38,643 bases of DNA from positions 1 through 38,643 of the forward strand of contig JAGAAC010000002.1 in the NCBI GenBank assembly GCA_017615475.1, given 5' to 3'. The stretch comes from Clostridia bacterium. GTDB taxonomy: Bacteria; Bacillota; Clostridia; Christensenellales; Aristaeellaceae. How positions within the stretch are numbered: the first letter of the stretch is position 1; each line of letters starts with the position of its first letter. Below the pieces are notes generated by a model. The model was given only the letters and a program-made list of their open reading frames with translations. It searched no databases and had not been told where the DNA came from. Below, piece by piece: positions 17,012 to 36,427 of this stretch. The position numbers and the translations under genes are program-made.

Positions 17012-20000
17012 ATGATCAATGAACTGTCCGAAGAGCTGAATCATGTGATTGATGCCCTGGCAGAGGACTTTTATCATCCCCTCGGTCCGATCCCGCTGGA
17101 AGGGTTCACCGCGGACCGGGATATGACGCTTTCTGAAGCGGAAAGCGCATCCCGTGTTTCCTGGCCGGAAGGAACCGTATGGGGTGGCCCCTGGGACTAC
17201 GCCTGGATGTTCGGATCCTTTACCGTTCCGCCGGAGGCTGCCGGCGAACGGATTGTCATGGATCTAAATCCCGGGGGTGAAGCCACGGTTTTTGTCAACG
17301 GGGAACCCTTCGGAACGCGCAGGGCAGACCGGCTTGACCATCTCCATCATTTCATTGTGGACCAGACCGTCTGCAGATGTGCTTCAGGCGGTGAAACCAT
17401 TTCCGTTGCCATGGAGGTTTACGGCGGCACCCCGCTGCCGGCTCATCCGTCCCGGCCTGTATTTCCTGAAAACGGAATCAGCTTTTCCCATACAGAAGCA
17501 TCCTCTGTCGGCCGGAATACCTTCGGCTGGTGGAATGAGGAAGCTTACCAGCTGTGGCTGGACCTGACCGTTCTGCGGGATGTTCATCATTACCTGAATC
17601 CCGACGACAGCTTCCGCGAAGCACTTGAAAAGGGGTTCACCGAACTTCTGGACACCCTGGACCTGGAACAGCCGGTCAGTAGCCGGCGGAAAGCCTGCAC
17701 CGCTGCCCGGGTTCTGATGGCTCCGCTTGTTCATGCGCATAACGGGACCTTTGCGGCATCCATGGGCGTGATCGGCAATTCGCATCTGGACCTTGCCTGG
17801 CTCTGGCCCATGGCCGAAACCCGCCGGAAAACAGCCCGGACCTTTGCCGCGCAGCTGCGTCTTCTGAAAGAATATCCGGAAGCGCTTTTTCTGCAAAGCC
17901 AGTGTGCCGAATATGAGCTCTGCCGGAAGCATTACCCGGAGCTTTTTGAAGAAGTCAGGAAAGCCGTTGCGGAAGGCCGCTGGATAGCGGACGGCGGTAT
18001 GTGGGTCGAACCCGACACCAATCTTACCGGCGGTGAATCACTGGTGCGCCAGTTCCTGTACGGTCGGCGTTATTTCAGGGAAGTGCTGGGCGTGGAAAGC
18101 CGGGTTGCCTGGCTTCCGGACAGCTTCGGTTACAGCGCCGCCCTTCCCCAGATCATCAAAGGCTTTGGAATGACCGGCCTTACCACCCAGAAAATCTTCT
18201 GGTCCTATAATGACGCGGAGCCTTTCCCCCACCACGCCTTCCTGTGGCGCGGCATGGATGGTTCCCTGGTTCCGTCCTTCCTGCACATGTTTTACGAAAC
18301 GCGTACCGATGCCGCCACGGTCCACAGGCGCTGGGTCGACCGCCTGGAGCGGGACGGAAGCTGTGATTTCTATCTGCCCTTCGGCTATGGCGACGGCGGC
18401 GGAGGCCCGACCCGGGATGACATGGAACAGATCCGGCGCCAGAAGGACCTGCAGGGAGCCCCGAAGCTTTACTGGATCACGCCGGAGGATTATCTCAAAA
18501 AACGGGATAACGGTTCTCTGCCGGTTTTCCGTGGAGAGCTGTATTTTCCCTGCCATCGCGGCACTTATACCACCCAGGCCCTGATCAAGAAAGGAAACCG
18601 CCGGGCGGAGCATATGCTCCGTGTGTGGGAAATGCTGGCCGCCATGGCCGCGTTTGCCGGCCGTGCGGACTACCCGGCTGCCTCCCTGGAGGAAAACTGG
18701 AAGCTGCTCCTGACAAACCAGTTCCACGACATTCTGCCCGGCTCCTCCGTTTCCCGTGTCTACGAGGAAGCGCGTATGGATATCGCCAGGATCAGGGATA
18801 CAGCCCTCCGCGGTTCCAAAAACGCCTTGTTGTCCTTCTGCCGGAACGGTCAGGGACTCACCGTTTTCAATCCTTCCTCCCATCGGGTAACCAGGGTAAT
18901 CCGGGCGGACAGCCGGTTTGCCGAAGGTGCTGTGACCCGGGAGGGAATCCGTTTCCAGGCCGCGGAATATAAGGACGAGGCGCTGGTCCTGGCCAGTCTG
19001 GAACCCATGTCCGCCGTCACGATGTATCCGGCCAAGGTACCTGTCCACAGCCGGGCCACCGTCACGCGTAAGGGGAAAAGCTACGTGCTGGAAAACTCGA
19101 ACCTCCGGGCCGTGGTAACGGACCGGGGCGAACTGACTTCCTTTGTTCTTCTGCAGGACGGCAGAGAACGGATCCGTTCCCGCTCCAACGTTTTCCATCT
19201 GTACCGTGATCTCCCCCGCCGTTTTGACGCCTGGGACCTGGACAGCCGGACAGAGCACCGGGAAATTTCGCCTGATGCGGTCTGTACAGCGGAAATCGTC
19301 TGCCCCAGCGGCATTTTTGCGGAACTGAAGATTACCACCCGTTTTTCCTCTTCTGTTATTACCCAGTGGATCCGCCTGACCGCCGAAGAGGAACAGCTTG
19401 AATTTATCACTGAGGCCGACTGGCAGGAACGCCACCGTCTGCTGAAGGTTACTTTCGACACGGGAATCGGTGCCGATCAGGCGGATCATCAGATCCAGTT
19501 CGGCTATCTTTCCCGTCCCGCCCATCGTTCCCGTCAGTATGATACCGACCGTTTTGAAGTCTGTGCCCATGCCTGGACCGCGCTGCGGGATACCTCCCGA
19601 GGGGCAGCTCTCCTGAACGACTGCAAATACGGTGTTTCTGTCAATGACGGGGTTATCGGCCTCAGTCTGCTTCGCTCCCCGACATGGCCGGACGCCGAAG
19701 CGGACCGCGGCCGCCATCGTTTCATCTATGTTTACCGTGCCTGGAACGGTCCGCTTGAAACCTCCGGGGTTACCGAAGCAGCGGAGGTGCTCAATGACCC
19801 GCTGATCACCGTACCGGGTTCTTCCGTTCCGCTGCGCCTGCTGTCCTGCAGCGATCCCTCGGTCTCTGTGGAAAGCGTCAAGCTGGCGGAAGACGGTTCC
19901 GGGGATCTGATCATCCGCCTGTTTGAAAGCATGGGAGGTTCCCGTACAGCCGTTATCCATCCCCATCTCCCCTTCGGCGGTGCCCGCCTTTGCTCCCTGG

Positions 20001-20200
20001 CGGAAGTTCCCGGCGATATTCTGGCCGTCAGGGACAACACCTTCACTCTTTCCTTCCGACCTTTTGAAATCATCACCCTGCGCCTTTGCCGTCGGGCAGC
20101 CCCGCCGACCTATCATTCCCTTGGTAATGACAGGAATCTTTGGCCCGGTCTCTCCGGAATTCTGGCCAATGATGCAGACGACAAAACCCCTGAATCCTGA
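17012..20200 (+). CDS. GH38 alpha-mannosidase
   Basis: A 1062-residue GH38 enzyme, a retaining zinc-dependent alpha-mannosidase. A jelly-roll-like domain (about 1-245) precedes the catalytic barrel. Zinc ligands are H258 and D260 in NSHLDLAWLWP, the nucleophile D370 in AWLPDSFGYSAALPQI, and H572-D573 in NQFHDILPGSS. The helical middle and C-terminal beta domains (about 600-1040) complete the normal length for bacterial and cytosolic members. There is no signal peptide, so it acts on imported mannosides. It has its own promoter and a probable terminator. The adjacent importer-plus-kinase cluster on the same strand is the likely supplier of substrate and consumer of product. Linkage specificity is not readable. 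Confidence 0.93.
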   Translation: MINELSEELNHVIDALAEDFYHPLGPIPLEGFTADRDMTLSEAESASRVSWPEGTVWGGPWDYAWMFGSFTVPPEAAGERIVMDLNPGGEATVFVNGEPFGTRRADRLDHLHHFIVDQTVCRCASGGETISVAMEVYGGTPLPAHPSRPVFPENGISFSHTEASSVGRNTFGWWNEEAYQLWLDLTVLRDVHHYLNPDDSFREALEKGFTELLDTLDLEQPVSSRRKACTAARVLMAPLVHAHNGTFAASMGVIGNSHLDLAWLWPMAETRRKTARTFAAQLRLLKEYPEALFLQSQCAEYELCRKHYPELFEEVRKAVAEGRWIADGGMWVEPDTNLTGGESLVRQFLYGRRYFREVLGVESRVAWLPDSFGYSAALPQIIKGFGMTGLTTQKIFWSYNDAEPFPHHAFLWRGMDGSLVPSFLHMFYETRTDAATVHRRWVDRLERDGSCDFYLPFGYGDGGGGPTRDDMEQIRRQKDLQGAPKLYWITPEDYLKKRDNGSLPVFRGELYFPCHRGTYTTQALIKKGNRRAEHMLRVWEMLAAMAAFAGRADYPAASLEENWKLLLTNQFHDILPGSSVSRVYEEARMDIARIRDTALRGSKNALLSFCRNGQGLTVFNPSSHRVTRVIRADSRFAEGAVTREGIRFQAAEYKDEALVLASLEPMSAVTMYPAKVPVHSRATVTRKGKSYVLENSNLRAVVTDRGELTSFVLLQDGRERIRSRSNVFHLYRDLPRRFDAWDLDSRTEHREISPDAVCTAEIVCPSGIFAELKITTRFSSSVITQWIRLTAEEEQLEFITEADWQERHRLLKVTFDTGIGADQADHQIQFGYLSRPAHRSRQYDTDRFEVCAHAWTALRDTSRGAALLNDCKYGVSVNDGVIGLSLLRSPTWPDAEADRGRHRFIYVYRAWNGPLETSGVTEAAEVLNDPLITVPGSSVPLRLLSCSDPSVSVESVKLAEDGSGDLIIRLFESMGGSRTAVIHPHLPFGGARLCSLAEVPGDILAVRDNTFTLSFRPFEIITLRLCRRAAPPTYHSLGNDRNLWPGLSGILANDADDKTPES

Positions 20201-20355: not shown

Positions 20356-20370
20356 TTTTGTAACAAAAAG
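20354..20370. promoter_or_regulatory. Operator-like palindrome over -10/+1 of the importer operon
   Basis: CTTTTTGT-A-ACAAAAAG is a perfect 17-base palindrome overlapping the last two bases of the -10 and the start point. Bound repressor would block initiation. Its half-site ACAAAAA also occurs in the palindrome next to lacI at 35248-35269, but there the half-sites face the other way. A second small hairpin, GCAGC/GCTGC, follows in the leader. Confidence 0.5.
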
Positions 20371-20410
20371 CAGCCGGTTTCGCTGCGAAAAAATCATATG
20401 GAGGTTTGCT

Positions 20411-21673: not shown

Positions 21674-21686
21674 TTCCGTATCATCC

Positions 21687-21718
21687 GGGAGGCCGGTAGC
21701 CCCGGCCTCCCTCTTTTT
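21687..21718 (+). terminator. Attenuating stem-loop between binding protein and permease genes
   Basis: GGGAGGCCGG (21687-21696) pairs perfectly with CCGGCCTCCC (21702-21711) around a 5-base loop, and CTCTTTTT follows on the transcribed strand. Placed inside the operon, it is expected to give the binding protein more transcript than the permeases. Confidence 0.85.
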
Positions 21719-21735
21719 ATGACAGGAGAAGGATC

Positions 21736-24185: not shown

Positions 24186-24186
24186 T

Positions 24187-25281
24187 ATGAATAACTGTCC
24201 TGAAATCCTGAATGCCTTTGCCCTGCCGGAAGGAGAACGCTCCGCGGTTCCCTTCGGCAACGGCCATATCAATAACACTTTCCTGATCCGTATCGCCGGA
24301 ACCGGGAAACAGTATATCCTGCAGCGCATCAACAGCTATGTTTTCACCCGTCCGAAGGATGTCATGGAAAACATGCAGCGAGTCACCGCCTTTCTGCGCG
24401 GAAAAATCGCCGCGGAAGGCGGAAACCCGGATCGTGAAACCATCACCCTGGTTTCCTCCCGTTCCGGTGAGGCCTATGCGGAGGATCCGGAAGGCCAGAT
24501 CTGGCGTGTTATGCTTTTTGTGCCGGACACTTTCAGTCCCGAGCTTCCGGATGACCTGAACATCCTGGAGGAGTGCGGCGGTGCTTTTGGCCGTTTTGCC
24601 CGGCTTCTGGACGATTTCCCCGCCTCATCGCTGCATGAGACGATTCATGCCTTTCATGACACACCGTCCCGGCTCCGCCAGCTGGAGGACGCTGCCAAAA
24701 ACGATCCCCTGGACCGCCTGAAGGATATCCCGGAGGAAATGGCTTTTGCCCGGTCCTGTGCGGCGGAAACAAGGGTGCTCACGGATGCCCTCTCCGCCGG
24801 GAAACTTCCGCTCCGCGTAACGCACAATGATACCAAGGTCAACAATGTCCTGCTGGATAAACAGACGGAAAAGGCAGTCTGTGTCATTGACCTGGATACG
24901 GTGATGCCGGGGCTTCTGGCTTATGACTTCGGCGACGCCATCCGGGTCGGCGCCTGCAGTGCGGCGGAGGATGAGCAGAACCTGGATCTTATTCATCTGG
25001 AGCTGCCTAAATACAGGGCTTTCTCCCGCGGTTTCCTGTCTCAGCTGAAAGGAATCCTCTCGCGGGATGAACTGCTTTCCCTGGAAGCCGGTGCCCGGAT
25101 CATGACGCTGGAGAACGGGCTCCGTTTCCTGGCTGATCACCTGAACGGAGATGTGTATTTTAAGATTCACCGCCCCGGTCAGAACCTGGACCGAGCCCGG
25201 GCGCAGTTTGCCCTCTACCGGGATATGGAAAAACACAGGACCGAGGCACAGAAGATCCTGCTGGAGCTTTACGGCGGATAA
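24187..25281 (+). CDS. APH-fold sugar kinase, N-acetylhexosamine 1-kinase (NahK)-like
   Basis: A 364-residue aminoglycoside-phosphotransferase-fold kinase. Closest known type by length and motifs is NahK/LnpB of bifidobacteria, which phosphorylates GlcNAc/GalNAc at C1. The Brenner motif is THNDTKVNNVLLD (H213, catalytic D215) and the metal site is IDLDTVMPGL (D235, D237), followed by DFGDAIR. An N-terminal nucleotide-binding lobe carries PFGNGHINNTFLI and YILQRIN. It starts one base after the permease stop, with GGAGG upstream, and closes the importer operon. It implies that the imported or released sugar is trapped as the 1-phosphate. Substrate could be HexNAc or another hexose such as mannose. 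A paralogue lies at 28002-29060. Confidence 0.82.
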   Translation: MNNCPEILNAFALPEGERSAVPFGNGHINNTFLIRIAGTGKQYILQRINSYVFTRPKDVMENMQRVTAFLRGKIAAEGGNPDRETITLVSSRSGEAYAEDPEGQIWRVMLFVPDTFSPELPDDLNILEECGGAFGRFARLLDDFPASSLHETIHAFHDTPSRLRQLEDAAKNDPLDRLKDIPEEMAFARSCAAETRVLTDALSAGKLPLRVTHNDTKVNNVLLDKQTEKAVCVIDLDTVMPGLLAYDFGDAIRVGACSAAEDEQNLDLIHLELPKYRAFSRGFLSQLKGILSRDELLSLEAGARIMTLENGLRFLADHLNGDVYFKIHRPGQNLDRARAQFALYRDMEKHRTEAQKILLELYGG

Positions 25282-25457: not shown

Positions 25458-26513
25458 ATGATGAAAAAACTGCTTTCTGCCATGCTTTCTGTCTGTATGC
25501 TGTTCCTTTGCTGTATTGTCCCCGTTCACGCGGAAACATCCGCGTCGGGAAAGATCATGCTTTACGGTGAATCTCACGCGGATCCCGGCTGCCTGGAAAA
25601 GGAACTGGCAGCCTGGTCTGACTGCTATGCTGACGGAATGCGTGATCTTTTCGTTGAGCTTCCTTTCTACGTGGCTGAATACCTGAACCTGTGGATGCAT
25701 GCGGATTCAGATGAGATTCTCGAACAGTTTTATGCTGACATTGAAGGAACGGACGCCCATGCCCCCTGCGTTCTTGATTTCTATCGCAGAATAAAAGCCG
25801 ACTTTCCTGAAACGGTTTTTCACGGAACAGATGTCGGTCATCTGTATTACACGGCCGGTTTACGCTATATTACACTTCTGGAATCAGAAGGCAGGAAAGA
25901 CAGTGAGGAATACCGTCTGGCGGAGGAAATAATCGGACAGGGCATCACCTACTACACCATGCAGGCTGAAAACAAGAACTCCGCCTTTGTTTACCGGGAA
26001 AACCAGATGGTGGAGAATTTCCTGCGGGTTTATAATGAACTGGGTCAGAAGGACGTTATGGGAATATACGGTTCCGCCCATACAGGCCTGTTTTCCCGTG
26101 ATATAACCGGTTCCGTTCCCTGTATGGCCGCTCAGCTGAGGAATCATTACGGAACCCTTGTTTCTTCAACCGACCTGACAAAAGCTGACATCATCAGCAC
26201 GGATACGGTGACCCTGAACGGAAAGGAATATCAGGCTTCCTTCTTCGGCAGTCAGGACATCTCATGGGCTGAAGGGTATCTGACTCGGGCCTTCCGGCGT
26301 GTGGAAAATGCCTATGAGGACCTGAAGGATGCTCCCCGCACCGGCAATTATCTTCCGGCCCACAACTACATCATGGATATCAGTGCGGGCGAAGTGTTTA
26401 TCGTCGATTATACAAAACAGGACGGTTCTCTGGAGCGTATGTACTTCCTTTCGGATGGCAGCACTTACGATGAAGGCGTTCTCAATACATACCAGATCCT
26501 TCTGAATGAATAA
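25458..26513 (+). CDS. Secreted protein of the EreA/ChaN-like superfamily
   Basis: A 351-residue exported protein with signal peptide MMKKLLSAMLSVCMLFLCC...PVHA, cut before ETSASG. Three motifs in the usual order point to the EreA/ChaN/TIKI superfamily of metal- or haem-binding hydrolases: LYGESH (E38, H40), LFVELP (E67) and MGIYGSAH (H208). No closer family is recognised; length is between ChaN and erythromycin esterase. The C-terminal 100 residues look like an added beta domain. Two ATG codons are adjacent; GGAGGT is 4 bases from the first and 7 from the second (25461), so the second may be the true start. It is a single-gene unit between two converging sugar operons. Confidence 0.7.
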   Translation: MMKKLLSAMLSVCMLFLCCIVPVHAETSASGKIMLYGESHADPGCLEKELAAWSDCYADGMRDLFVELPFYVAEYLNLWMHADSDEILEQFYADIEGTDAHAPCVLDFYRRIKADFPETVFHGTDVGHLYYTAGLRYITLLESEGRKDSEEYRLAEEIIGQGITYYTMQAENKNSAFVYRENQMVENFLRVYNELGQKDVMGIYGSAHTGLFSRDITGSVPCMAAQLRNHYGTLVSSTDLTKADIISTDTVTLNGKEYQASFFGSQDISWAEGYLTRAFRRVENAYEDLKDAPRTGNYLPAHNYIMDISAGEVFIVDYTKQDGSLERMYFLSDGSTYDEGVLNTYQILLNE

Positions 26514-26530: not shown

Positions 26531-26568
26531 CCGGGAACCGCAAAGATACGGTTCCCGGCCTTTCTGTT
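26531..26568. terminator. Bidirectional terminator between the ChaN-like gene and the phosphohexomutase gene
   Basis: CCGGGAACCG (26531-26540) pairs with CGGTTCCCGG (26549-26558) around an 8-base loop. TTTCTGTTT follows on the plus strand and TCTTTG on the minus strand. It sits between two converging genes. Confidence 0.85.
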
Positions 26569-26575
26569 TCCTGTA

Positions 26576-27988
26576 TTATGCCAGTCCTGTAAAATCAGCC
26601 ATTTTCCGGACAAGCGCTTCCGCTTCCTTTTGTGTCGGTGCTTCCGCAAAGATACGGATCCGCGGTTCCGTACCGGAAGGCCGGACAATCACCCATCCGT
26701 TTTCAAAATAGACTTTGCATCCGTCCATGTAGTTGACCCGGACGACAGTCTGCTCAAAGGACGGAAGCTTATTCTCCTCCATGACCAGCTTGTGAATGGC
26801 TTCCTTCTTTTCCGGCGTCAGGGCCCAGTCATATTCAGCGGAGTGCATTTCACCGTAACGGTCATACAGGTCCTGCACAAGTTCGCTCAGTTTTTTGCCG
26901 CTGACGCTCAGCATCTCCACCAGCAGGCTGGCGGCATACAGGCCGTCTTTGCCGGCAATATGTCCCCGCACCGTCAGGCCGCCGGAGGATTCACCACCGA
27001 TCAGCGCATCATGGGTCTCCATGCCCGCGGAGATATGTTTGAATCCCACAGGCACCTCAATGCAGGTCTCCCCGTGAGCTTCCGCAATCCGGTCCAGCAG
27101 GTGCGTGGTGGCAATGTTCCGTACCGCCGGGCCCTTCCATCCCTTCTGCTCCAGCAGATAGGAATACAGCAGTGCCAGTGTTTCATTGGCGGTGATGTAA
27201 TTGCCTTTTTCGTCAATGATGCCCAGCCGGTCCGCGTCGCCGTCCGTGGCAATGCCGACGTCGGCGTTATGCTCCTTCACTGCGTACTGCAGGTCCACCA
27301 GGGTGTCCGGATTCGGTGCCGGCAGATGGCGGCCGAAGAAAGCGTCATGGCGGTCATTGATTACATCCACGTCGCACCGGGAGGTATACAGAATGGTCTG
27401 CAGGCCGGTCAGGCTCACGCCGAACATCGGGTCCAGCACAATCCGCAGTCTGCGTTTCCGGATGGCATCCGTGTTCACCTGCTTCAGGATGGAATCGAGA
27501 TAGGCGTCCCGCGGATCGATGATCCTGATGATGCCGGCCGCCTTTGCCGCTTCAAAATCCATGCTGTGTATTTCGTCTTCTGTCAGCTGGTTTGCTGTCA
27601 GCTGGATGGCTTCCGTCACATCCTGCGCGGCATCCCTTCCGCCGGCCGTGAACAGCTTGATCCCGTTCCAGACAGCCGGGTTGTGGCTGGCTGTGACCAT
27701 TGCGCCGTAAGGAAGTTTCCTTTCCTTCACCGTAAACATGATCTGCGGTGTCGGGCAGCTCATGTTGACGAACCAGACGGTCACGCCTTCCCCGGCAAGT
27801 ACTTCGCAGAACCAGATCAGGGCTTCGCGGCTCAGGAAGCGCCTGTCGTATCCGACACACAGGCCTTCTTCCGCGCATTCCTCCTGCTTCATTCTGCGGG
27901 CCAGCGCCCCGGCCACCCTCCGGATGTTTTCCCGTGTAAACCCGTCTCCGATGACGGCTCTCCAGCCGCCGGTACCGAATTGAATCAT
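26576..27988 (-). CDS. Phosphoglucomutase/phosphomannomutase family enzyme
   Basis: A 470-residue alpha-D-phosphohexomutase, which moves phosphate between C1 and C6 of a hexose. All four domains are present. The phosphoserine is S101 in TASHNP, the Mg2+ loop is DGDADR (249-254), the sugar loop is GGESSGG (331-337), and the phosphate clamp is RPSGTEPRIRI near the C-terminus. The family includes glucose, mannose and N-acetylglucosamine mutases, and these motifs do not settle which. It is the last gene of the minus-strand operon, 13 bases after a NahK-like kinase. That order makes conversion of the kinase's sugar 1-phosphate to 6-phosphate the natural reading. GGAGG lies 7 bases before ATG 27988. 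Confidence 0.92.
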   Translation of the reverse strand: MIQFGTGGWRAVIGDGFTRENIRRVAGALARRMKQEECAEEGLCVGYDRRFLSREALIWFCEVLAGEGVTVWFVNMSCPTPQIMFTVKERKLPYGAMVTASHNPAVWNGIKLFTAGGRDAAQDVTEAIQLTANQLTEDEIHSMDFEAAKAAGIIRIIDPRDAYLDSILKQVNTDAIRKRRLRIVLDPMFGVSLTGLQTILYTSRCDVDVINDRHDAFFGRHLPAPNPDTLVDLQYAVKEHNADVGIATDGDADRLGIIDEKGNYITANETLALLYSYLLEQKGWKGPAVRNIATTHLLDRIAEAHGETCIEVPVGFKHISAGMETHDALIGGESSGGLTVRGHIAGKDGLYAASLLVEMLSVSGKKLSELVQDLYDRYGEMHSAEYDWALTPEKKEAIHKLVMEENKLPSFEQTVVRVNYMDGCKVYFENGWVIVRPSGTEPRIRIFAEAPTQKEAEALVRKMADFTGLA

Positions 27989-28001
27989 TTTATGCCTCCG
28001 T

Positions 28002-29060
28002 TCAGATCCCGTTCATCATCTGTCGGATGATGCCGTCTTTTTCTTCCATTTCCGCGGTCAGTGCCATCTGGGTTCTGGTCCGGTCCAGGTTATGCTCCGG
28101 CCGCTCAATATGATAATAGGTATCGCCGTTCAGGTAGTCCGTCAGGAATCTCACCGCGTTTTCCAGTGTGATGATCCGTGCCCCGTCCGGCAGTGTTTCC
28201 TTTTCATTCTTCGTCAGTTTGTCTCCGCAGGTGCCCAGGAACCCCTCCGCATAGGCCTTGTAAAGATTCAGGTCCATGTGCACTTTCCGGAGATCCTTTT
28301 CATCTTCCGCAGCGGTAGACGCGCCGAAACGGATGGAGTCGCCGAAATCATTGGCCGCCAGTCCCGGCATCACCGTATCCAGGTCCAGGATGCACAGCGG
28401 CTTCCTTGTCTTTTCATCCAGCATGACATTGTTCAGTTTCGTGTCGTTATGCGTCACGCGAAGCGGCAGTTCCCCGGCTTTCAGCATCTGCTGCAGCAGG
28501 CCTGCTCCCGCTTCCCTTTCCAGCATAAAGTTGATTTCAGGCCCTGCGGTCTTTACCCTCCCGGCCCGGTCTTCCCGGATGGCCTCATGCAGGGCCCGGT
28601 AGCGGTTCGGCGTGTCATGGAATCCAGAAATGGTTTCTGTCAGCCTGTCCGCGGGAAAATCAGCCATCTGCTTCTGGAATGTGCCGAAGGCAGCGCCGCT
28701 GTTCCGGAAATCCGCCGCAGTCTCCGCCTTGTCCAGGCAGACCCCGCCGGTCACATACTCATACATCCGCCACAGTTCTTTCCGGTCGTTCAGGATATAA
28801 TCCCTTCCGTCCCTGAGCTTTACCAGTGTCATCACGTGCCGCGGATCGGGGTCCTTTTTCCGCAGGTGTCCCGTTACCATCAGGATATTGCTCATCAGGC
28901 CTTCCGGATCCCGGAAGGTCTCTGTATTGACCCGCTGCAGGATATACAGATGGGGCTGGTTGGTCACCACCAGCCAGGTCTGGTTGATATGGCCGGATCC
29001 GAAAGGTACGCACCGGATAATGGTTCCTTCCGTGCGGAACTGTTCCGCCGTTTCACGCAT
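28002..29060 (-). CDS. APH-fold sugar kinase, NahK-like (second copy)
   Basis: A 352-residue paralogue of the kinase at 24187-25281. It shares PFGSGHINQTWL, YILQRVN, SGFHDTPNRYR, LPLRVTHNDTKLNNVMLD (H204, catalytic D206), ILDLDTVMPGL (D226, D228) and the C-terminal LNGDTYYHIERPEHNLDRTR. Similarity runs the whole length but is clearly below identity, so it is an old duplication or separate acquisition with probably a different sugar preference. It is followed by the phosphohexomutase gene and preceded by the binding-protein gene with a stem-loop between. The ribosome site (GGTGA) is weaker than in neighbouring genes, which with the stem-loop would lower its output relative to the binding protein. 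Confidence 0.82.
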   Translation of the reverse strand: MRETAEQFRTEGTIIRCVPFGSGHINQTWLVVTNQPHLYILQRVNTETFRDPEGLMSNILMVTGHLRKKDPDPRHVMTLVKLRDGRDYILNDRKELWRMYEYVTGGVCLDKAETAADFRNSGAAFGTFQKQMADFPADRLTETISGFHDTPNRYRALHEAIREDRAGRVKTAGPEINFMLEREAGAGLLQQMLKAGELPLRVTHNDTKLNNVMLDEKTRKPLCILDLDTVMPGLAANDFGDSIRFGASTAAEDEKDLRKVHMDLNLYKAYAEGFLGTCGDKLTKNEKETLPDGARIITLENAVRFLTDYLNGDTYYHIERPEHNLDRTRTQMALTAEMEEKDGIIRQMMNGI

Positions 29061-29096
29061 GGTTTTTCACCGCTTTCAGGTTTTTTTCGCAAAACA

Positions 29097-29124
29097 CCGG
29101 CAGGAGGAGCCCTCCTCCTGCCGG
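29097..29124 (-). terminator. Stem-loop (attenuator) between binding protein and second kinase
   Basis: CCGGCAGGAGGA (29097-29108) pairs perfectly with TCCTCCTGCCGG (29113-29124), loop 4. On the minus strand it is followed by TGTTTTG, a short T tract. It is probably a partial terminator or a 3' stabiliser for the binding-protein message. Confidence 0.75.
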
Positions 29125-29158
29125 CAGTGACTGTGTTTTCGGTTTTCAGGTTAATTGC

Positions 29159-30616
29159 TTATTTCCCGGCCATGAACTCTTCCAGCTGGCGGTTCACTTC
29201 ATCCACATATTCGTTGATGCCGGCCGCTTCCAGTTCGGCAATGGCTGCCGGATAGTTCTCATCAAAGTCCACATATCCGTAGAGGATGGGAGCCAGTTTC
29301 TTCCATGCTTCGGAGCAGGAAGTCTGGATCAGCTTGACATTTTCGTCATTGAAGTTGAAGCCGAACATGGCGGAAACCTGAGCGTCATTGTCCCAGTTCA
29401 GATAGTTCTCGATGTATTCCTTGCTCACATCGCTGGAGAACACCTGATAGTTGGCGTTCCGGAACATCCACTCGTAGAAGAATCCTTCTCCGGCCGCGGT
29501 CTCACTGATCAGCACCAGTCCCCCGTTCTCGTCCAGGTCCCAGTCCTTGCCCTTCTCGCCGTACAGGCAGAACAGGTAGTTCTCCTGGCTGCCCCACAGC
29601 CAAGCCAGGAACTTCAGGGCACCTTCAGGATTCTTGGCGGAATACGGAATGCACAGCACTTCGCCGCCGGCGGTGTTGATGTAACGGGGCTTTTCCGGCG
29701 CCAGCAGGTAGTTACCCATCACAGCGTTGGGATCAGCCGTCTTCACCTTGTTTCCGATCTCCAGGTCCTTGGCCAGGGAGCCTTCCACCCAGAGGTACAG
29801 GCCGGTCTGCACGCGGGACTCACGTTCGTTGTACTTGATGGCCAGTTCATCCTGGTACAGGCCGTCCAGGAACATTTCTCTGTTATACTGGGCTACCTTC
29901 TTGAAGGCGTCGGTGTGGGCATAGCTGTAAGCCTTATGGGTATCCTCACCGAAGACCACCAGATCCTGGTACGCGACCCAGAAATACTGTTCATCGGCGA
30001 AATAACGGGTCAGGGGCTTGAAGATGATGTCCCCGGGGCCGCGGAATTCGGGGAACTGGTCCTGCACGCGCTCGGCGTATTCACGCAGGTCCTCGGCCGT
30101 CTTTACTTCGGTCATGCCGACTTTCTCCAGCAGGTCCTGCCGCAGGCAGACAAACTGGAACATGGCGGAGGACGGCGCGTAAGCAGACGGAATGCCGTAC
30201 TGGACACCGTTGATCTTGCCGCCGTTCATCTGGGTTTCCGGCAGAACGTCCTTCATGTAGTCCGGCCAGGCCTTGGCGATCAGATCGTCCAGGGGCTGGG
30301 CTTCCTTGTTGTTTACCATGCTGGACAGGTCCGGCAGTCCGTCCCAGTACAGGTCGATGGTTTCATTGGCCGCCAGCAGGATTTTCTTCTGGTCCCAGTA
30401 GGAATCCCAGCTCAGGAACCGGAAATTCACCTTCATATTCAGGTCTTCCTTCACCTTTTCGGCAAAGGCGCCGTTAATAAACTCGGAAAACGCGTCGGTT
30501 TCTTCACCGGGATACAGGATCGTGATTTCCTCCAGTTCGTCTGCCTGCGCCATCAGCGGCACAGCCAGGGTCAGCACCAGCGTCAGCGCCAGTACCATTG
30601 CCAACAGTTTCTTCAT
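29159..30616 (-). CDS. ABC importer solute-binding protein (LplA/DUF3502 type)
   Basis: A 485-residue solute-binding protein of the LplA type that pairs with LplB/YtcP permeases. The signal peptide MKKLLAMVLALTLVLTLAVPLMAQA has no cysteine, so there is no lipid anchor site, as in the other binding protein of this window. The body includes LNMKVNFRFLSWDSYWDQKKILLAANETIDLYWDG and IPYSAKNPEGALKFLAWLWG, typical of this group, and a C-terminal helical segment. AGAAGGAGGG precedes the ATG. It is the fifth gene of the minus-strand operon, after the two permeases. Related importers carry aldouronates or other complex oligosaccharides; the ligand here is unknown. Confidence 0.92.
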   Translation of the reverse strand: MKKLLAMVLALTLVLTLAVPLMAQADELEEITILYPGEETDAFSEFINGAFAEKVKEDLNMKVNFRFLSWDSYWDQKKILLAANETIDLYWDGLPDLSSMVNNKEAQPLDDLIAKAWPDYMKDVLPETQMNGGKINGVQYGIPSAYAPSSAMFQFVCLRQDLLEKVGMTEVKTAEDLREYAERVQDQFPEFRGPGDIIFKPLTRYFADEQYFWVAYQDLVVFGEDTHKAYSYAHTDAFKKVAQYNREMFLDGLYQDELAIKYNERESRVQTGLYLWVEGSLAKDLEIGNKVKTADPNAVMGNYLLAPEKPRYINTAGGEVLCIPYSAKNPEGALKFLAWLWGSQENYLFCLYGEKGKDWDLDENGGLVLISETAAGEGFFYEWMFRNANYQVFSSDVSKEYIENYLNWDNDAQVSAMFGFNFNDENVKLIQTSCSEAWKKLAPILYGYVDFDENYPAAIAELEAAGINEYVDEVNRQLEEFMAGK

Positions 30617-30638
30617 GTGTTTACCCTCCTTCTATTTT

Positions 30639-30661
30639 CATAATATGCTTAACGCATTATG
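30639..30661. repeat. AT-rich inverted repeat upstream of the LplA-type gene
   Basis: CATA-AT-ATGC and GCATTATG pair around TTAAC with a two-base bulge. It lies 23 bases before the binding-protein ATG, in the 82-base gap after the permease gene. It could be a processing or stability hairpin. A promoter here is not convincing. Confidence 0.35.
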
Positions 30662-30698
30662 AATCTTTTTTGTCAGCGCGCTATGATCACGCTGTCCG

Positions 30699-31628
30699 TT
30701 ATTCCTTGACCGCTCCCGTCAGAATACCCCGTACAAAGTACCTTTGGATGAAAGGGTACAGGAAGATGATCGGCCCGATGGTGACAATCGTGACAGCCAT
30801 CTTTGCTGTCTCCGCGGGAAGCTTGAGGCCGGCCGCGGCGCCTGCCGGAACACGGCCGCTGTTGATCGCGTTCACATTCGACATCATTTTGTACAGGAAA
30901 TACTGCAGCGGGAACAGATCCCTGTCTTCAATGAACATCAGCGCATGCCACCAGTCATTCCAGTAACACAGGGCATACATCATTCCGACCGTCAGCAGCG
31001 CCGTAACGCTCAGCGGCAGGGCGATCCGGAAGAAGATCGTCATATGCCCGGCTCCGTCAATCTTCGCAGCTTCATACAGGCTTGGACTGATGGCCTTGAA
31101 GTAGGTCCGCATCAGGAACATGTTCCATACGCTGAACATCATCGGCAGGATCAGCCCCAGGATATTGTTATGCAGCCCGTACCATTTGGTGCAGATCACA
31201 TACCAGGGAACAAGTCCCGCGGAAAAGATACTGGTAAAGTTGCAGATGAACGCGATCACGTTCCTGTATTTCATTTCCCGCAGGCTGATGGCGTAGGAAA
31301 TCATGCAGGTAACCAGCATGGAGCCGAATGTGCCGACAGCCGTGATAAAAATCGTTACAAGGTAAGATTTTGCGATCCTGCCGCCGCTTTGATCAAACAG
31401 GTAGGTATAGGTATTCAGCGATAACTGGCTGGGGATCAGCCGGTATCCTTCCTTTACAACTGTTTCATCAGGCGTAAAGCTGACCACCACTGTCAGCAGC
31501 AGCGGATATAGGCAGATCAGGCCGAAGAACCCGACAATGATGTAGGCGATTATTTTCGCCCACCGGTCTGCGCTGGTCTGGCGGATGTGGCCGGGATGGT
31601 GCTGTTTGGAATGAATAATCGTACTCAT
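30699..31628 (-). CDS. ytcP: ABC importer permease, YtcP/LplC type
   Basis: A 309-residue permease of the YtcP/LplC group with six membrane segments. The EAA loop is YEAAKIDGAGHMTIFFRIALP, and the C-terminal LYPFIQRYFVRGILTGAVKE ending is a hallmark of this group. I chose ATG 31628 because its codon shares one base with the stop of lplB (TGATG), implying coupling. The longer open frame upstream lacks membrane character and overlaps lplB. It works with LplB and the binding protein just downstream. No ATPase is encoded in this operon. Confidence 0.92.
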   Translation of the reverse strand: MSTIIHSKQHHPGHIRQTSADRWAKIIAYIIVGFFGLICLYPLLLTVVVSFTPDETVVKEGYRLIPSQLSLNTYTYLFDQSGGRIAKSYLVTIFITAVGTFGSMLVTCMISYAISLREMKYRNVIAFICNFTSIFSAGLVPWYVICTKWYGLHNNILGLILPMMFSVWNMFLMRTYFKAISPSLYEAAKIDGAGHMTIFFRIALPLSVTALLTVGMMYALCYWNDWWHALMFIEDRDLFPLQYFLYKMMSNVNAINSGRVPAGAAAGLKLPAETAKMAVTIVTIGPIIFLYPFIQRYFVRGILTGAVKE

Positions 31629-32611
31629 CAGAACAGTCCCTCCCCGTCGTTGATCTTCTTTGCCAGGGCATTGGCAAGGATGATCAGGATCAGACCCATC
31701 ATGCTCTGGCACAGGCCGATGGCGCTGCTGAAGCCGAATCCCATCGTACGCATGGAGGTATAGACATAGGTATCAATAACCGAAACCTCATCCAGCAGCG
31801 TACCGTTCTGGCCCACCAGGCCCCAGATCATTCCCATGTCGCCGTAGAAGATCCTGCCGATGCTCAGCAGTGTCAGGACCACCACAGTGGACTTCAGCAT
31901 GGGAAGCGTCAGATACCGGATCTGCTGGAACCGGCTGGCCCCGTCGATGGTGGCGGCCTCGTACAGGCTGCCGTCAAACTGGGCCATGGCCGCCATATAA
32001 ACAATGGAGTTGTAACCGGCCCATTTCCACACATCCAGGAAAATGATGATGGTTCTCCAGTATTTTGCTTCCGCGTACCACCGGATGGGTTTGGCTCCCA
32101 AAACCATCAGGGCACGGTTTGCCACCCCGTTGGCGCCGGTTGTAATTAGTTCGCCTGTTTTCCGGTCTATCCGGAAATTGGCCGTCAGGAAACCGTACAA
32201 AACAGCGCCGATAACCACCCAGCTCAGGAAGTAAGGGAAAAACATCGCGCTCTGGCTGATTTTCTTGAAAGGTCCGTTCTTCACCTCGTTCATCGCGATG
32301 GCGATGGAAATCGGAACAATTGTCCCGAAGATCAGTCCCCAGAAGTTGATGAACAGTGTGTTCCTCACTGCTTTCCAGAAATAGGGATTGCCGTTCAGGA
32401 AATAGGAGAAATTCTCAAATCCCACAAAGGGGGATCCGAAGATGCCGTCCTTCACATTGTAATTGGTGAAGGCCATATACATGCCGCCCATGGGCAGGTA
32501 GGAAAACGCCAGGAGCAGCAGCAGAGCCGGTATGCACATCAGGTACAGCGTCCGGTTATGCTTCATTTCCCAGCGGAAACCGCGTTTCGTGGGCAGGATT
32601 GTCTTCTGCAT
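31628..32611 (-). CDS. lplB: ABC importer permease, LplB type
   Basis: A 327-residue LplB-type permease. The N-terminal cytoplasmic stretch leads into six membrane segments. The group's features are YLPMGGMYMAFTNYN after the first segment, and the EAA loop YEAATIDGASRFQQIRYLTLP. A charged extra segment (about 155-190, FRIDRKTGELITTGANG...) between membrane segments is typical of LplB proteins. AAAGGAGGAG precedes ATG 32611, 29 bases after the acyltransferase gene. It forms the channel with YtcP. Confidence 0.93.
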   Translation of the reverse strand: MQKTILPTKRGFRWEMKHNRTLYLMCIPALLLLLAFSYLPMGGMYMAFTNYNVKDGIFGSPFVGFENFSYFLNGNPYFWKAVRNTLFINFWGLIFGTIVPISIAIAMNEVKNGPFKKISQSAMFFPYFLSWVVIGAVLYGFLTANFRIDRKTGELITTGANGVANRALMVLGAKPIRWYAEAKYWRTIIIFLDVWKWAGYNSIVYMAAMAQFDGSLYEAATIDGASRFQQIRYLTLPMLKSTVVVLTLLSIGRIFYGDMGMIWGLVGQNGTLLDEVSVIDTYVYTSMRTMGFGFSSAIGLCQSMMGLILIILANALAKKINDGEGLF

Positions 32612-32640
32612 GAATCTCTCCTCCTTTCTTTTTCATCTGT

Positions 32641-33870
32641 TCAGGTTTCGTAAGGGTTTTCCCCGATCCGCGGAACCTCTTCCCGCAGCAGGAACATACC
32701 CGTGGTATGGAACCGGTCTCCCCGGGCCCATACTTCAAACATACCGCGTTCCAGGCTGTTTCTCGGCGTCAGTTTCCGGTAATCCGCGCGCTCGTCTCCC
32801 AGAACCTCCAGGCGGATCATCCGGTCTCCTTCCTCCACGGGGTAGCAGTAGAACTGCCGCTGAACCCGGACAATGTTCCGGTCCGGCTTAACAATTTCCC
32901 TCAGGCCCGGATCATACAGCCAGCTTTCGCTCCAGAACCCGATATAGTGATACTCGGGATAATACCGGTCATAAAAGGCCAGCGCCTTTTCGCAGCTGCT
33001 TTTCACCCGTTCCGGCGTGTAGCCTTCCCCGCCCGGGATATGCAGTGCCAGCAGGAAATCGTCATCTCCCAGCGCTTTGCGCCAGGTTCTTTTGTCCAGT
33101 GTAACGACTTCCTGTGAAACAAGTCCTTCCGGCAGGACCCGGTTGCCTTTTACGGTGTCCTCCGTTTCCTCAAATACGGTGGTAAAGGCTTCCGGATCAT
33201 AAACATCGTTCACGCCGTCAATCTGGCCGTCCTGCCGGATCCTGACCCCCGCGTGCCACAGGGCAGTCACTTCTCCGGTTTCTGTGTTCCGCCAGGCTTC
33301 CGGGGATCCGCCCCAGCGGTAAGGGATAAAGTAGAAACGGTCCAGGAAGAAGATCTGGCAGCAGTAAAAGTTCATATCCCAGGGGTAATCGTCAAAACTG
33401 ATATCCCCGGTCTCAACGTATTTCTTCAGCTGCTTCCGGGTCATCCGTTCCGGAATATCCGCGTCGTATTCTTCCGGAATTCCCCGCTCCCGCAGGGCTT
33501 TCCGTCCTTCCAGTACGCACAGCTGGGTATACAGGAACGCGTATGCCTCTTTGGCAAACCCGGTCAGGCATTCCGGCCTGGGCTGGTGGAATTCCACCGC
33601 GTGGCACCGGACCAGCCCCCGTACCGCGTCTTTTGCCATGATGCGGGCAAGCTCCACCAGTTCCGGTACTTTGTTTGCCTCGTCCAGCGCCTCCAGCAGC
33701 GCCTGCTGCCTGTCTGCCGGAACATGGTTCGTTTCCAGCACACTGAGGAGGATCTCCCGAGGCAGCAGTTCCTTTTCATCCGCCTCCAGGTCGCTGATGT
33801 GTTCTTCCATCGCTTCAGGGATGATGTTTCCTGTAACCTGAAGCAGTTCGTTCAGTCTTTCGGTTGTCAT
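32641..33870 (-). CDS. GNAT-like acyltransferase-domain protein (NAT_N/GNAT_C type)
   Basis: A 409-residue cytoplasmic protein. It resembles the 'acyltransferase domain-containing' proteins of gut Firmicutes, which have an all-helical N-terminal part and a divergent GNAT-like C-terminal part. Visible anchors are DRFYFIPYRWGG near the middle, LLALHIPGGEGYTPERVKSS, and the GFWSESWLYDPGLREIV plus NIVRVQRQFYCYP stretch. The acceptor is unknown for the family. There is no signal peptide or membrane segment. ATG 33870 overlaps the stop of the Gfo/Idh gene by 4 bases (ATGA), so the two are translationally coupled and probably act on the same compound, perhaps acylating an oxidised or amino sugar. 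The family assignment is from memory of motifs. Confidence 0.62.
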   Translation of the reverse strand: MTTERLNELLQVTGNIIPEAMEEHISDLEADEKELLPREILLSVLETNHVPADRQQALLEALDEANKVPELVELARIMAKDAVRGLVRCHAVEFHQPRPECLTGFAKEAYAFLYTQLCVLEGRKALRERGIPEEYDADIPERMTRKQLKKYVETGDISFDDYPWDMNFYCCQIFFLDRFYFIPYRWGGSPEAWRNTETGEVTALWHAGVRIRQDGQIDGVNDVYDPEAFTTVFEETEDTVKGNRVLPEGLVSQEVVTLDKRTWRKALGDDDFLLALHIPGGEGYTPERVKSSCEKALAFYDRYYPEYHYIGFWSESWLYDPGLREIVKPDRNIVRVQRQFYCYPVEEGDRMIRLEVLGDERADYRKLTPRNSLERGMFEVWARGDRFHTTGMFLLREEVPRIGENPYET

Positions 33871-35129
33871 GCCTGCGCTGTCCTTTCATACTTCCGGCGG
33901 AAATCTGTGATGCGGATCACCTTTCCTGTCAGCCGGGCTTCTTCTGCCGCGCAGGCCATCATGTGGCTTTCAACCGATTCATGGATATCCGTGGCGGATT
34001 CGTTCAGTTTCCCTTCCAGCATGGAAAGGAAGTCTTCCACAATGCCGCTGTCTCCGCCGCTGTGTCCGCTGGTGCTTTCCTCCGGATGAATGATCTCGGT
34101 CTCAGCCTCTTCCTTCCAGTTGCTTGCGAAGCGGGTGATCTCAATCACATTGTCAGCTTCGCTGGCACGGATCTCTCCGTTTTCACCCATGATCTTGATC
34201 GTCCGGGTCATCCTGTTGGTGAATCCGCTCAGGTTAAACGTTGCGGTAACCCCGTTTGCGAAACGGAGAATAGACACCTGATGGTCGCACACGTTGTTGT
34301 CGCAGTGGTATACGCAGCGGCCGTACGGTCCGGTCCGGATCGCTTCCCGGAGGCCTTCGTCGCTCTGGTCTTCTGTCAGCACTGTAGCCGGCCACTCACC
34401 GGCAATCGGCAGATAGCAGCGGTAAGCGCTGAACCGGCAGCTGTCCTTCAGCGGGCATTCCGCGCAGCGTTCCGCCGCGTTCTCCGGTGCGTTTTCTGCC
34501 TTGAAATAGGTCAGGTCTCCGAAGGAGGAAATGCTTTCGCATTTGCTTCCTGTCATCCAGACCAGCAGGTCCATGTCATGGCAGGATTTCTGCATCACCA
34601 GCGGGCTGGCCAGGTCGCTTCTTCTCCAGTTGCCCCTGACAAAGCTGTGGGCAATATGGAAATTGCCGATATTCTCGTTATGCTGGATGGTAATCACCCG
34701 GCCGATTTTCCCGTCCGTAACCGCCTTTTTGAGCGCCCTGAAAAAGGGGCTGTACCGAAGCACATGGCACACTGTCACATGCCGGCCGGTTATGACGGCA
34801 GTTTCCTCGATAGCGAGCGTTTCCGCCGGATCCGGCGAAATCGGCTTTTCCAGCAGCAGGTGATAGCCCTTTTCCATGGCCGGAACCGCTTCCCGGAAAT
34901 GGTCCCGGTCCATCGTCGCGATGATGGCGGCGTCTCCGAGCTTCGGCTGGTCCAGCAGATCTCCCCCGTTCACGAAACGGTATTCCGCCGGAATGCCGAA
35001 CAGATCGCCGGCAATCTGGCGCTTCACCTCATCCGTTTCCGCGACAGCAGCGATCTCATGTCCCATTTCCAGGGCATATTTCGCGTAGATCATTCCCCGC
35101 TGCCCTGCACCGATTAATACAAACTTCAT
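33867..35129 (-). CDS. Gfo/Idh/MocA-family NAD(P)-dependent oxidoreductase with a cysteine-rich insert
   Basis: A 420-residue oxidoreductase. The Rossmann domain has GAGQRG (7-12) and the EKP motif (94-96). The catalytic-domain SCHDMDLL (H184, D185) is in the usual position. An insert (about 205-285) carries seven cysteines, C222-x2-C225-x5-C231-x6-C238 and C272-x3-C276-x4-C281, a layout able to bind zinc or an iron-sulfur cluster. Members oxidise sugars or inositols, and some (GH109, GH188) cleave glycosides by a redox mechanism. It is the first gene of the LacI-flanked operon, which has an importer, kinase and mutase but no classical glycosidase. GGAGA lies 8 bases before ATG 35129. Substrate is unknown. 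Confidence 0.9.
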   Translation of the reverse strand: MKFVLIGAGQRGMIYAKYALEMGHEIAAVAETDEVKRQIAGDLFGIPAEYRFVNGGDLLDQPKLGDAAIIATMDRDHFREAVPAMEKGYHLLLEKPISPDPAETLAIEETAVITGRHVTVCHVLRYSPFFRALKKAVTDGKIGRVITIQHNENIGNFHIAHSFVRGNWRRSDLASPLVMQKSCHDMDLLVWMTGSKCESISSFGDLTYFKAENAPENAAERCAECPLKDSCRFSAYRCYLPIAGEWPATVLTEDQSDEGLREAIRTGPYGRCVYHCDNNVCDHQVSILRFANGVTATFNLSGFTNRMTRTIKIMGENGEIRASEADNVIEITRFASNWKEEAETEIIHPEESTSGHSGGDSGIVEDFLSMLEGKLNESATDIHESVESHMMACAAEEARLTGKVIRITDFRRKYERTAQA

Positions 35130-35145: not shown

Positions 35146-35165
35146 GAAACTTTTGTTTTTGTTTA
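35146..35165. promoter_or_regulatory. Operator-like site in the minus-operon leader
   Basis: GAAAC at 35146-35150 and GTTTA at 35161-35165 flank a T-rich core. Read on the minus strand it contains AAACAAAAACA, identical over 11 bases to the left part of the palindrome at 35248-35269. It lies downstream of the predicted start point, a place where a LacI-type repressor can block elongation or loop to the other site. Confidence 0.45.
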
Positions 35166-35173
35166 CTAAACAA
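35159..35173. promoter_or_regulatory. Palindrome overlapping the -10 of the minus operon
   Basis: TTGTTTA-C-TAAACAA is a perfect 15-base palindrome that shares four bases with the -10 hexamer and covers the predicted start point. This is a standard repressor position. It overlaps the neighbouring GAAAC/GTTTA site. Confidence 0.55.
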
Positions 35174-35198
35174 TAGCATATGTTTCAGCCCCTGTCAA
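35170..35198 (-). promoter_or_regulatory. Sigma-A promoter of the Gfo/Idh-importer-kinase operon
   Basis: On the minus strand TTGACA (35198-35193), a 17-base spacer and TATTGT (35175-35170) preceded by TGC form a strong promoter, about 40 bases before the Gfo/Idh ATG. It probably drives the seven genes down to 26576. Confidence 0.85.
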
Positions 35199-35247: not shown

Positions 35248-35269
35248 GAAACAAAAACATTTTTGTTTC
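35248..35269. promoter_or_regulatory. Perfect 22-base palindrome in the lacI/operon intergenic region
   Basis: Arms GAAACAAAAA and TTTTTGTTTC flank a CA centre. It lies 10 bases upstream of the lacI -35 and about 50 bases upstream of the divergent operon's -35. Size and symmetry fit a LacI-family operator. It is the best candidate binding site for the adjacent regulator. Confidence 0.65.
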
Positions 35270-35278
35270 ATAAACAGC

Positions 35279-35307: not shown

Positions 35308-35416
35308 TAAGGTAGTTACAGGAATCATCCGTCCTGTTTGATCATGTTTCTTTTCGGATGCTTTCTCCTGTGTATTGTTTTGTTTCAGGCCTTCTTTGCA
35401 GAAAGGACGAAGCTTT

Positions 35417-36427
35417 ATGGCAAACATCCGCGATGTGGCCCGGCTGGCCAACGTCTCCCCCGCCACGGTCTCCCGTATTCTGAATGACAATCAGATATAC
35501 AAGACCACCGATGAAACGCGGGAGAGGGTTCTGCGCGCCGTGACGGAGCTGGGTTACCAGGCTCCTGTCAAAAAACGTCCTGCCGCCCGCCAGGCTGAAA
35601 CATCCGGTTTCTCCGTCGGCGTGCTGCTGGCTACCACCAAGGGAAAGTACAGCGATCCGTATTATCTTGCCATTCTCAGCGGCATTGAGGACGAACTCGC
35701 CCGTCTCGGCGGAACGATATCCGTCATCCAGACAGAGCAGGAGCTAGAGGACCAGGCCATTCTCAGCCGCCTCCTGGGCGCCGGGCTTTCCGGGCTGATC
35801 ATGATGCGTCCCCTCTCCGAGCCGCTTTTCGAGCAGCTTCATTCCCTTATCCCGCATATTGTCGGAATCGATACAGGCCACATGCCCATCGATAATGTGG
35901 AATACGATCATCTCCGTGTCAGCAAAATGGCCGTGGAATACCTCTACAGCAAAGGCCACCGGACCATCGGCTACATCGGCGGCAGCGTCGGGAATGCCCC
36001 GCTGAAACGTTCGCGCCGTTACCGCAGTTACCTCGAAACCATGGCGGATCTCGGGCTGGAAGTGAAGCCCGAATGGGTATTGAATTGCGACTGGGACGAC
36101 CGGAAATGTGTCGCCCTGGTAGAAAAAACATATCACGAGCACGGCCTGCCCACCGCCTTCTATGCCGCCAGCGACCTCATGGCTATGGCCGCCCTGCGTG
36201 CCCTGTATCAGCTGGGCATCCGCGTTCCGGACCAGGTCGCTGTCATTGGTATGAGCAATATTGAGATGAGCCAGTACGCCAATCCGCCGCTGACCACCAT
36301 TGATGTCCCCGCCGTTGAAATGGGAATCACCGCTGCCCGGATTATTGCCGCCCGGGTCCGCGGGGATACAACCCTTCCCAAGCGCGTTCTGCTCCCTTCC
36401 CGCCTCATTGAGCGGGATTCCGTATGA
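35417..36427 (+). CDS. LacI-family transcriptional regulator
   Basis: A 336-residue LacI/GalR regulator. The N-terminal helix-turn-helix and hinge helix are clear (IRDVARLANVSPATVSRILND, then ETRERVLRAVTELGYQ). The periplasmic-binding-like core follows, with DPYYLAILSGIEDELAR, HRTIGYIGGS, FYAASDLMAMAALRALYQLGIRVPDQVAVIGM and LTTIDVP. I chose ATG 35417 (AAAGGA 9 bases upstream), since the longer frame lacks a site. It is divergent from the seven-gene operon across two or three operator-like palindromes, so it most likely represses that operon and itself, with a sugar or sugar phosphate as inducer. The ligand cannot be told from the sequence. Confidence 0.93.
   Translation: MANIRDVARLANVSPATVSRILNDNQIYKTTDETRERVLRAVTELGYQAPVKKRPAARQAETSGFSVGVLLATTKGKYSDPYYLAILSGIEDELARLGGTISVIQTEQELEDQAILSRLLGAGLSGLIMMRPLSEPLFEQLHSLIPHIVGIDTGHMPIDNVEYDHLRVSKMAVEYLYSKGHRTIGYIGGSVGNAPLKRSRRYRSYLETMADLGLEVKPEWVLNCDWDDRKCVALVEKTYHEHGLPTAFYAASDLMAMAALRALYQLGIRVPDQVAVIGMSNIEMSQYANPPLTTIDVPAVEMGITAARIIAARVRGDTTLPKRVLLPSRLIERDSV

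Follow-up and report, generated by a model that had tools for sequence, protein, structure and literature searches.

In bifidobacteria, the pathway involving N-acetylhexosamine 1-kinase (NahK) is the lacto-N-biose/galacto-N-biose (LNB/GNB) pathway. During lysosomal heparan sulfate breakdown, terminal glucosamine (GlcN) is acetylated and then removed by the HGSNAT-NAGLU pair. These and other described systems were compared with a seven-gene operon found on the minus strand at positions 26576-35129 of a 38,643-nucleotide stretch (the window) of contig JAGAAC010000002.1, from a Clostridia bacterium genome of 2.18 Mb that is 70% complete. In the following, L-numbers designate loci, i.e., fetched stretches, and G-numbers the genomes compared, with G000 being that of the window. 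We tentatively propose that this operon, under the control of a LacI-family regulator, may serve to import and catabolize a glycan containing an amino sugar, by way of acetylation, opening by a Gfo/Idh protein and the successive actions of a NahK-like kinase (NahK1) and a mutase.

A check of open reading frames (ORFs), together with a Pfam scan, confirmed the operon in place and on the strand assigned. As such, the picture given in a preliminary description of this DNA, namely, seven minus-strand genes separated by short gaps or overlaps and headed by Gfo/Idh and acyltransferase genes, held in terms of coordinates, strand and Pfam identities. The first gene encodes a 420-residue Gfo/Idh/MocA oxidoreductase (33867..35129), assigned from GFO_IDH_MocA domains, conserved residues, a structural model and its fold, and overlaps by 4 bases with that encoding a 409-residue N-acyltransferase containing NAT_N and GNAT_C domains (32641..33870). 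These are followed by genes for two ATP-binding cassette (ABC) permeases with BPD_transp_1 domains, one LplB-like (31628..32611) and one YtcP-like (30699..31628). The listed start of the latter, 31712, is too early; an ATG at 31628 overlaps the preceding stop by 1 base. Next come a solute-binding protein (SBP) with a DUF3502 domain, recognized from Pfam and Protein Data Bank (PDB) matches as a distant relative of NgtS (29159..30616), NahK1, with an APH domain and a match to NahK in the PDB (28002..29060), and a phosphohexomutase with PGM_PMM domains I-IV (26576..27988), probably an N-acetylglucosamine (GlcNAc)-phosphate mutase as judged from its Arch_GlmM score and the context of its paralogues. 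The remaining intergenic gaps are of 29, 82, 98 and 13 bases. No gene for the ATPase of the importer lies within the operon. Divergent from the operon, on the plus strand, is the gene for the LacI-family regulator (35375..36427), identified by Pfam. When six of the seven genes were compared with their L050 orthologs, 34-43% of third codon positions differed, as opposed to 5-10% of first and second positions, a contrast that argues for purifying selection on these genes.

According to the pathway proposed, an NgtS-like ABC system would import a small glycoside bearing a GlcN residue with a free amine, which an Orf11*-type acyltransferase would N-acetylate. The Gfo/Idh protein, with bound NAD, would then open the glycoside by transient oxidation, in the manner of glycoside hydrolase (GH) families GH109 and GH188, or else oxidize the sugar. 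NahK1 would generate GlcNAc-1-phosphate (GlcNAc-1-P), the mutase would convert this to GlcNAc-6-phosphate (GlcNAc-6-P), and NagA and NagB, encoded elsewhere, would complete the pathway. It is from gene order and its conservation, protein families and folds, the operator and the context of paralogues that we infer each of these reactions, as well as the substrate.

Gene order in relatives and a conserved operator

To the 11 loci from a contig scan and the four full-length matches, including the window, from a search of the order were added G834, G856 and G846. With duplicates merged, this yielded 16 distinct orthologous acyltransferase loci. The relatives are Clostridia-type metagenome-assembled genomes, several from the ruminant gut. 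The Gfo/Idh gene precedes the acyltransferase gene in all 15 loci that include that side, while L053 begins inside the acyltransferase gene. Likewise, the acyltransferase is present in each of the 11 genomes in which Gfo/Idh is at least 62% identical. NahK1 follows in seven of these (G000, G284, G097, G834, G856, G846 and G703) and the mutase in five (G000, G284, G097, G834 and G856); in G254, the SBP ORF is shortened and neither NahK1 nor the mutase is found on the 13.7 kb contig. In all five genomes with Gfo/Idh proteins that are 50-55% identical (G179, G814, G717, G829 and G723), no acyltransferase was found in the stretches considered, three of which are contigs of 4-8 kb. Of these, G717 and G723 present the regulator, Gfo/Idh, both permeases and the SBP together, an arrangement pointing to a core comprising regulator, Gfo/Idh and importer. 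In G179, the operator described below lies between the Gfo/Idh gene and a LacI-NahK1-mutase group that face each other. On the basis of gene order, then, the acyltransferase appears to have joined the core in one clade, with the kinase and mutase having joined in part of that clade. Accordingly, the notion that Gfo/Idh, acyltransferase, importer, kinase and mutase form a fixed block had to be given up, given the restriction of the acyltransferase to one clade and the lack of kinase and mutase in several relatives.

The operon is also preceded by a conserved operator and is, as such, predicted to be under LacI control, with lacI found beside the operon in most relatives. The operator O1, TTGTTTACTAAACAA (35159..35173), overlaps the -10 element of a sigma-70-like promoter of the operon on the minus strand (TTGACA-17-TATTGT; 35170..35198), a site recognized by consensus match only. 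A weaker copy, O2, TTGTTTCATAAACAG (35263..35277), showing three mismatches to the typed operator pattern, lies 104 bases from O1 and adjoins a promoter-like site of lacI. Such promoter-like sites are not above chance, with four being found in the region as compared to 5.1 expected from shuffled sequences. The window contains three operator matches versus 0.26 expected, of which the third, at 8873, is probably due to chance. An operator with 0-1 mismatch precedes the Gfo/Idh gene in all 15 orthologous loci that include that side, as well as in L095; none with up to two mismatches was found in L164-L167. A second copy with at most two mismatches, 103-104 bases away, was detected in the window, L033, L035/L049, L050, L157 and L158. 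The background, 15 sites with 0-1 mismatch per 744231 bases, is an overestimate, since short loci of the same clade were included.

Kinase, mutase and importer

The conversion of GlcNAc to GlcNAc-1-P and on to GlcNAc-6-P is the firmer half of the proposed pathway and is considered likely. NahK1 is similar over its full length to the NahK of PDB entry 4ocu (residues 3-344 of 352; E 3.5e-91), and the earlier suggestion of a 1-kinase/mutase route is supported. The mutase scored 334 bits against Arch_GlmM (cut-off 439) and fell short of the glmM cut-off (180 vs. 447.55 bits), with a separate GlmM scoring above the cut-off in nine of 10 genomes checked. A paralog 77% identical to the mutase is found in G179, preceded by NagA and then GH94, while in G800 a paralog sharing 69% identity comes after a GH94 gene. 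Chitobiose phosphorylase, which releases GlcNAc-1-P, belongs to GH94, yet so does cellobiose phosphorylase; since GH94 alone would cover both activities, it is the presence of NagA beside GH94 in G179 that favors GlcNAc. With this context, the kinase and mutase most likely generate first GlcNAc-1-P and then GlcNAc-6-P. In this G179 locus (L210, 7973-14822), a gene for a NagA-like amidohydrolase is followed directly by those for the GH94 phosphorylase, the phosphohexomutase and then a histidine kinase, a series that could represent a chitobiose phosphorylase pathway. NagA was found in nine of the 10 genomes, being missing from the incomplete G000, and NagB-like proteins in all 10, four of which scored above the cut-off.

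In assays reported in PMC6264712, bifidobacterial NahK at 0.75 uM converted 0% of GlcN as compared to 35-42% of GlcNAc, with 8-15% of GlcN being converted at 15 uM enzyme. Such poor use of GlcN offers a reason for the presence of an acyltransferase in the pathway. In the same study, mannose served as a fairly good substrate, which keeps in play a different reading of the region, namely, that it is an N-glycan locus. Here, a GH38 alpha-mannosidase would trim mannose, NahK1 and a second NahK paralog (NahK2) would phosphorylate mannose or N-acetylhexosamine, the mutase would be a phosphomannomutase and the minus-strand operon would import Man-GlcNAc-like pieces. The GH38 and NahK2 genes belong to a convergent plus-strand operon at 17012-25281 that begins with GH38 (17012..20200), continues with its own SBP and two permeases, and ends with NahK2 (24187..25281), 46% identical to NahK1. 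NahK2 is similarly convergent in G284, G097, G834, G856 and L050, and NgtS was crystallized with Man1GlcNAc and Man5GlcNAc (PMC5215778). Still, the SBP is only distantly similar to NgtS (5swa/5mlt/5suo; E 8.7e-13 to 1.1e-12), and GH38 was seen in the convergent operon in only the window and G284. In G097 (L036), the importer and NahK2 are retained and GH38 is missing, which weakens this reading; in L050, NahK2 is retained, with GH38, SBP and permeases all missing from that place. For G834 and G856, the sequence considered stops short of that point, and GH38 was not found beside the operon in the other orthologous stretches. Moreover, the mutase paralogs accompany GH94 and NagA, and the N-acyltransferase is left unexplained. 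Nor is the convergent operon accompanied by an operator, with co-regulation being discarded upon finding no site with up to two mismatches in L034 or L036, where the convergent operon is located, and just O1 and O2 at that level in the window. The N-glycan reading is thus improbable. A glycosylphosphatidylinositol-anchor substrate (Man-GlcN-inositol), which would suit both GH38 and free GlcN, was also set aside, with no direct evidence pointing to it.

Acyltransferase and Gfo/Idh protein

The acetylate-then-cleave portion of the proposed pathway is its weaker half. In terms of both NAT_N and GNAT_C domains and fold, the acyltransferase falls into the class of Orf11* and Dbv8, N-acyltransferases of glycopeptide (teicoplanin-type) biosynthesis, albeit at 17-20% identity and an rmsd (root-mean-square deviation) of 6.8-8.2. 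These enzymes are known to act on the amine of a glucosamine. Among 31 distant acyltransferase loci, five encode the two domains as a fusion with a GH20 beta-hexosaminidase, as recognized by Pfam in G000 and G179 and by full-length similarity in G284, G264 and G139. The G000 fusion (L046, 9392-11434) is found beside a GlmS-like gene (SIS and GATase domains). GH20 catalysis is acetamido-dependent. Together with the Gfo/Idh-acyltransferase pair, the fusion raises the idea that gut bacteria re-acetylate de-N-acetylated glucosamine for the benefit of acetamido-dependent enzymes and NahK.

These fusions recall the layout of the fungal protein Ngs1, in which a GlcNAc-binding GH3 domain is joined to an acyltransferase domain and GlcNAc is sensed (PMC5063960). 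The acyltransferase could, therefore, have a non-catabolic role, either in sensing or in making an N-acylated amino-sugar product. Given that a dedicated LacI regulator and operator accompany the operon, and that the acyltransferase gene comes after Gfo/Idh in every orthologous locus where this can be seen, such a role is very improbable. Elsewhere, an acyltransferase gene of G328 is found amid three SGSH_C-type sulfatases (L192, 2043-9311); a heparan substrate was considered a weak proposition, as choline-sulfatase is the closest PDB match to the one sulfatase considered.

As for the Gfo/Idh protein, it belongs to a subfamily found in 83 of 294 genomes of the order (E 1e-30 or better) and marked by Cys222, Cys225, Cys231 and Cys272, as well as by His356 in the loop SGHSGGD. 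In the alignment, neither the four Cys columns nor His356 (loop GHxGGD) varies in any of the 73 unique rows. As a plain pattern, CX2CX5C was seen in just 39 of the 77 ORFs of the subfamily, where either spacing or the slice searched differs from the alignment. The strict GHxGxD pattern appears in 63 of these 77 ORFs versus three of 22 other Gfo/Idh proteins. Two of those three come from a comparison set of GH109_C proteins, the third member of which does not show the strict pattern. The His356 loop aligns with that of a profile of the three GH109_C proteins, an equivalence by position only. In a fold search with the modeled protein, GH188 enzymes ranked second to sixth, and RgNanOx, WlbA, GnnA and glucuronide-3-dehydrogenase scored a few Z units lower. 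Cleavage by redox chemistry, as had been suggested earlier, is hence plausible on the strength of the invariant loop His and the fold ranks. The Cys residues lie in an insert of some 75 residues (205-281) that is poorly modeled and could correspond to a metal or Fe-S site; it is not covered by the best stretch of any of the 60 PDB sequences listed. The PDB holds no close relative of the protein and the best stretches from profile searches fell within profile positions 1-218, such that these searches say little about its second half.

An alternative that is possible, if somewhat doubtful, is that the Gfo/Idh protein acts on the imported sugar in preparation as a conventional NAD(P)-dependent sugar dehydrogenase, a 3-keto-forming enzyme or an epimerase, with cleavage being left to other enzymes (DUF4832/GH42-like, GH20 or GH38) encoded either close by or at other sites. 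Several of the observations consistent with this alternative weigh against redox cleavage and, with others, against the proposed pathway as a whole. The GH188 fold scores are tied with those of scyllo-inositol dehydrogenase, 1,5-anhydrofructose reductase and YjhC, so that a plain dehydrogenase has to be entertained; the protein scored 62.4 bits against the IolG (inositol 2-dehydrogenase) model TIGR04380, whose cut-off is 355. GH109_C (PF21252) is absent from its Pfam matches at E 0.001, as it is from those of the 70%-complete G000 genome. The canonical EKP Lys and HD His are both retained, the former being missing from GH109-like proteins. Glycosidase-like genes adjoin the Gfo/Idh or importer genes in L057, L059, L100, L102, L121 and L175, and distant Gfo/Idh relatives adjoin GH43/GH2, GH3, GH129/GH101-like and arabinofuranosidase-like genes. 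In L057 (13091-17951) and L059 (11715-14072), the gene directly behind that of the SBP encodes a protein matching both DUF4832 and Glyco_hydro_42. Thus, the claim that the operon contains no classical glycosidase stands for the window, with a GH38-containing operon convergent next door, and is partly contradicted by these two relatives, where a putative GH42-like protein accompanies the operon. In addition, kinase and mutase are missing behind the SBP in G769, G800 and G806, and no operator with up to one mismatch was found in the stretches around their homologs in G769 and G800. Among the 31 distant acyltransferase loci, just three (L043, L189 and L196) show a same-strand Gfo/Idh gene no more than 2 kb away, in each case of another subfamily lacking the GHxGxD loop. 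Of 48 distant Gfo/Idh loci, 40 have neither NahK nor NanE/NagA/NagB-like genes within 8.5 kb. Finally, the free-amine substrate is deduced from a single activity in the family, and the acyl groups that Orf11* transfers in its native pathway are long-chain.

On the other side of the ledger, in the window, L054, L056 and L058, no glycosidase gene is part of the operon or comes right after that of the SBP, with unrelated genes (RecD2, CotH, aminotransferase) coming after the SBP in the latter three, and the loop His motif is missing from 19 of the 22 other Gfo/Idh proteins. NahK-like genes are found within 8.5 kb in five of the 48 distant loci (P ~4e-5 at 0.8% expected and 3e-3 at 2%, the loci not being fully independent and the 0.8% being a hand estimate from 1-2 NahK per genome in 12 genomes), and NanE/NagA/NagB-like genes in four, one of which also has NahK. 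A bolder version of the redox proposal, according to which the Gfo/Idh protein founds a new NAD-dependent hexosaminidase family with a four-Cys metal/Fe-S site, acting after a glucosaminide N-acyltransferase as a bacterial counterpart of HGSNAT/NAGLU, of which the GH20-acyltransferase fusions would be the hydrolytic version, is considered unlikely. A sialic acid substrate was discarded, as among the loci compared NanE was found in just two distant ones, L109 and L121, and not in the window clade. Of the three acyltransferase loci with a nearby Gfo/Idh gene, only in L196 (8658-11083; G308), which belongs to a different lineage, is that gene directly upstream; in L189, a phosphodiester glycosidase (NAGPA) gene lies in between and an RpiR regulator follows.

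Neighboring features and described systems

Between the two convergent operons are a GC-rich terminator-like hairpin (26531..26558), a consensus match of which there were 14 as compared to 9.0 expected, and an ORF (25458-26513) whose product begins in a signal-like manner and matches no Pfam family, conserved in the genus at 57-70% identity. GH67 (11521-13371) and GH31 (3432-5459) genes are found elsewhere in the window.

Literature searches returned no publication showing this gene set, and no wider claim of novelty is made. Should the Gfo/Idh protein indeed be a redox glycosidase, glycan loci that seem free of glycosidases would need to be re-read; confirmation would also reveal a new bacterial way of opening glycans that contain amino sugars.

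Of the systems described, the bifidobacterial pathway shares with the operon an anomeric kinase of the NahK family and ABC import, whereas the operon offers no match to GH112, GalT or GalE and instead includes a mutase, Gfo/Idh and an acyltransferase. The pneumococcal importer NgtS-NgtP1-NgtP2 is comparable in its two permeases and, at a distance (E ~1e-12), in its SBP. With Orf11* and Dbv8, the acyltransferase shares fold and domains, yet it resides in a transport operon and is of low identity to them. The GH109 and GH188 enzymes have the Gfo/Idh fold in common with the protein considered here, whose loop His motif resembles the GGHGG loop of GH109 and whose EKP Lys and HD His match by position Lys107 and His193 of ArSqgA (GH188; PMC10755693); it differs in giving no GH109_C match and in carrying the insert with invariant Cys. 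That insert and different partners also set it apart from RgNanOx and YjhC, oxidoreductases of 2,7-anhydro-sialic acid, with no sialic acid family being found among the 20 window proteins scanned. The likeness to HGSNAT-NAGLU is one of logic, in that the operon would likewise acetylate before removal. Taken together, the operon is best described as a variant of known amino-sugar catabolic operons in which one enzyme may be a new redox glycosidase.

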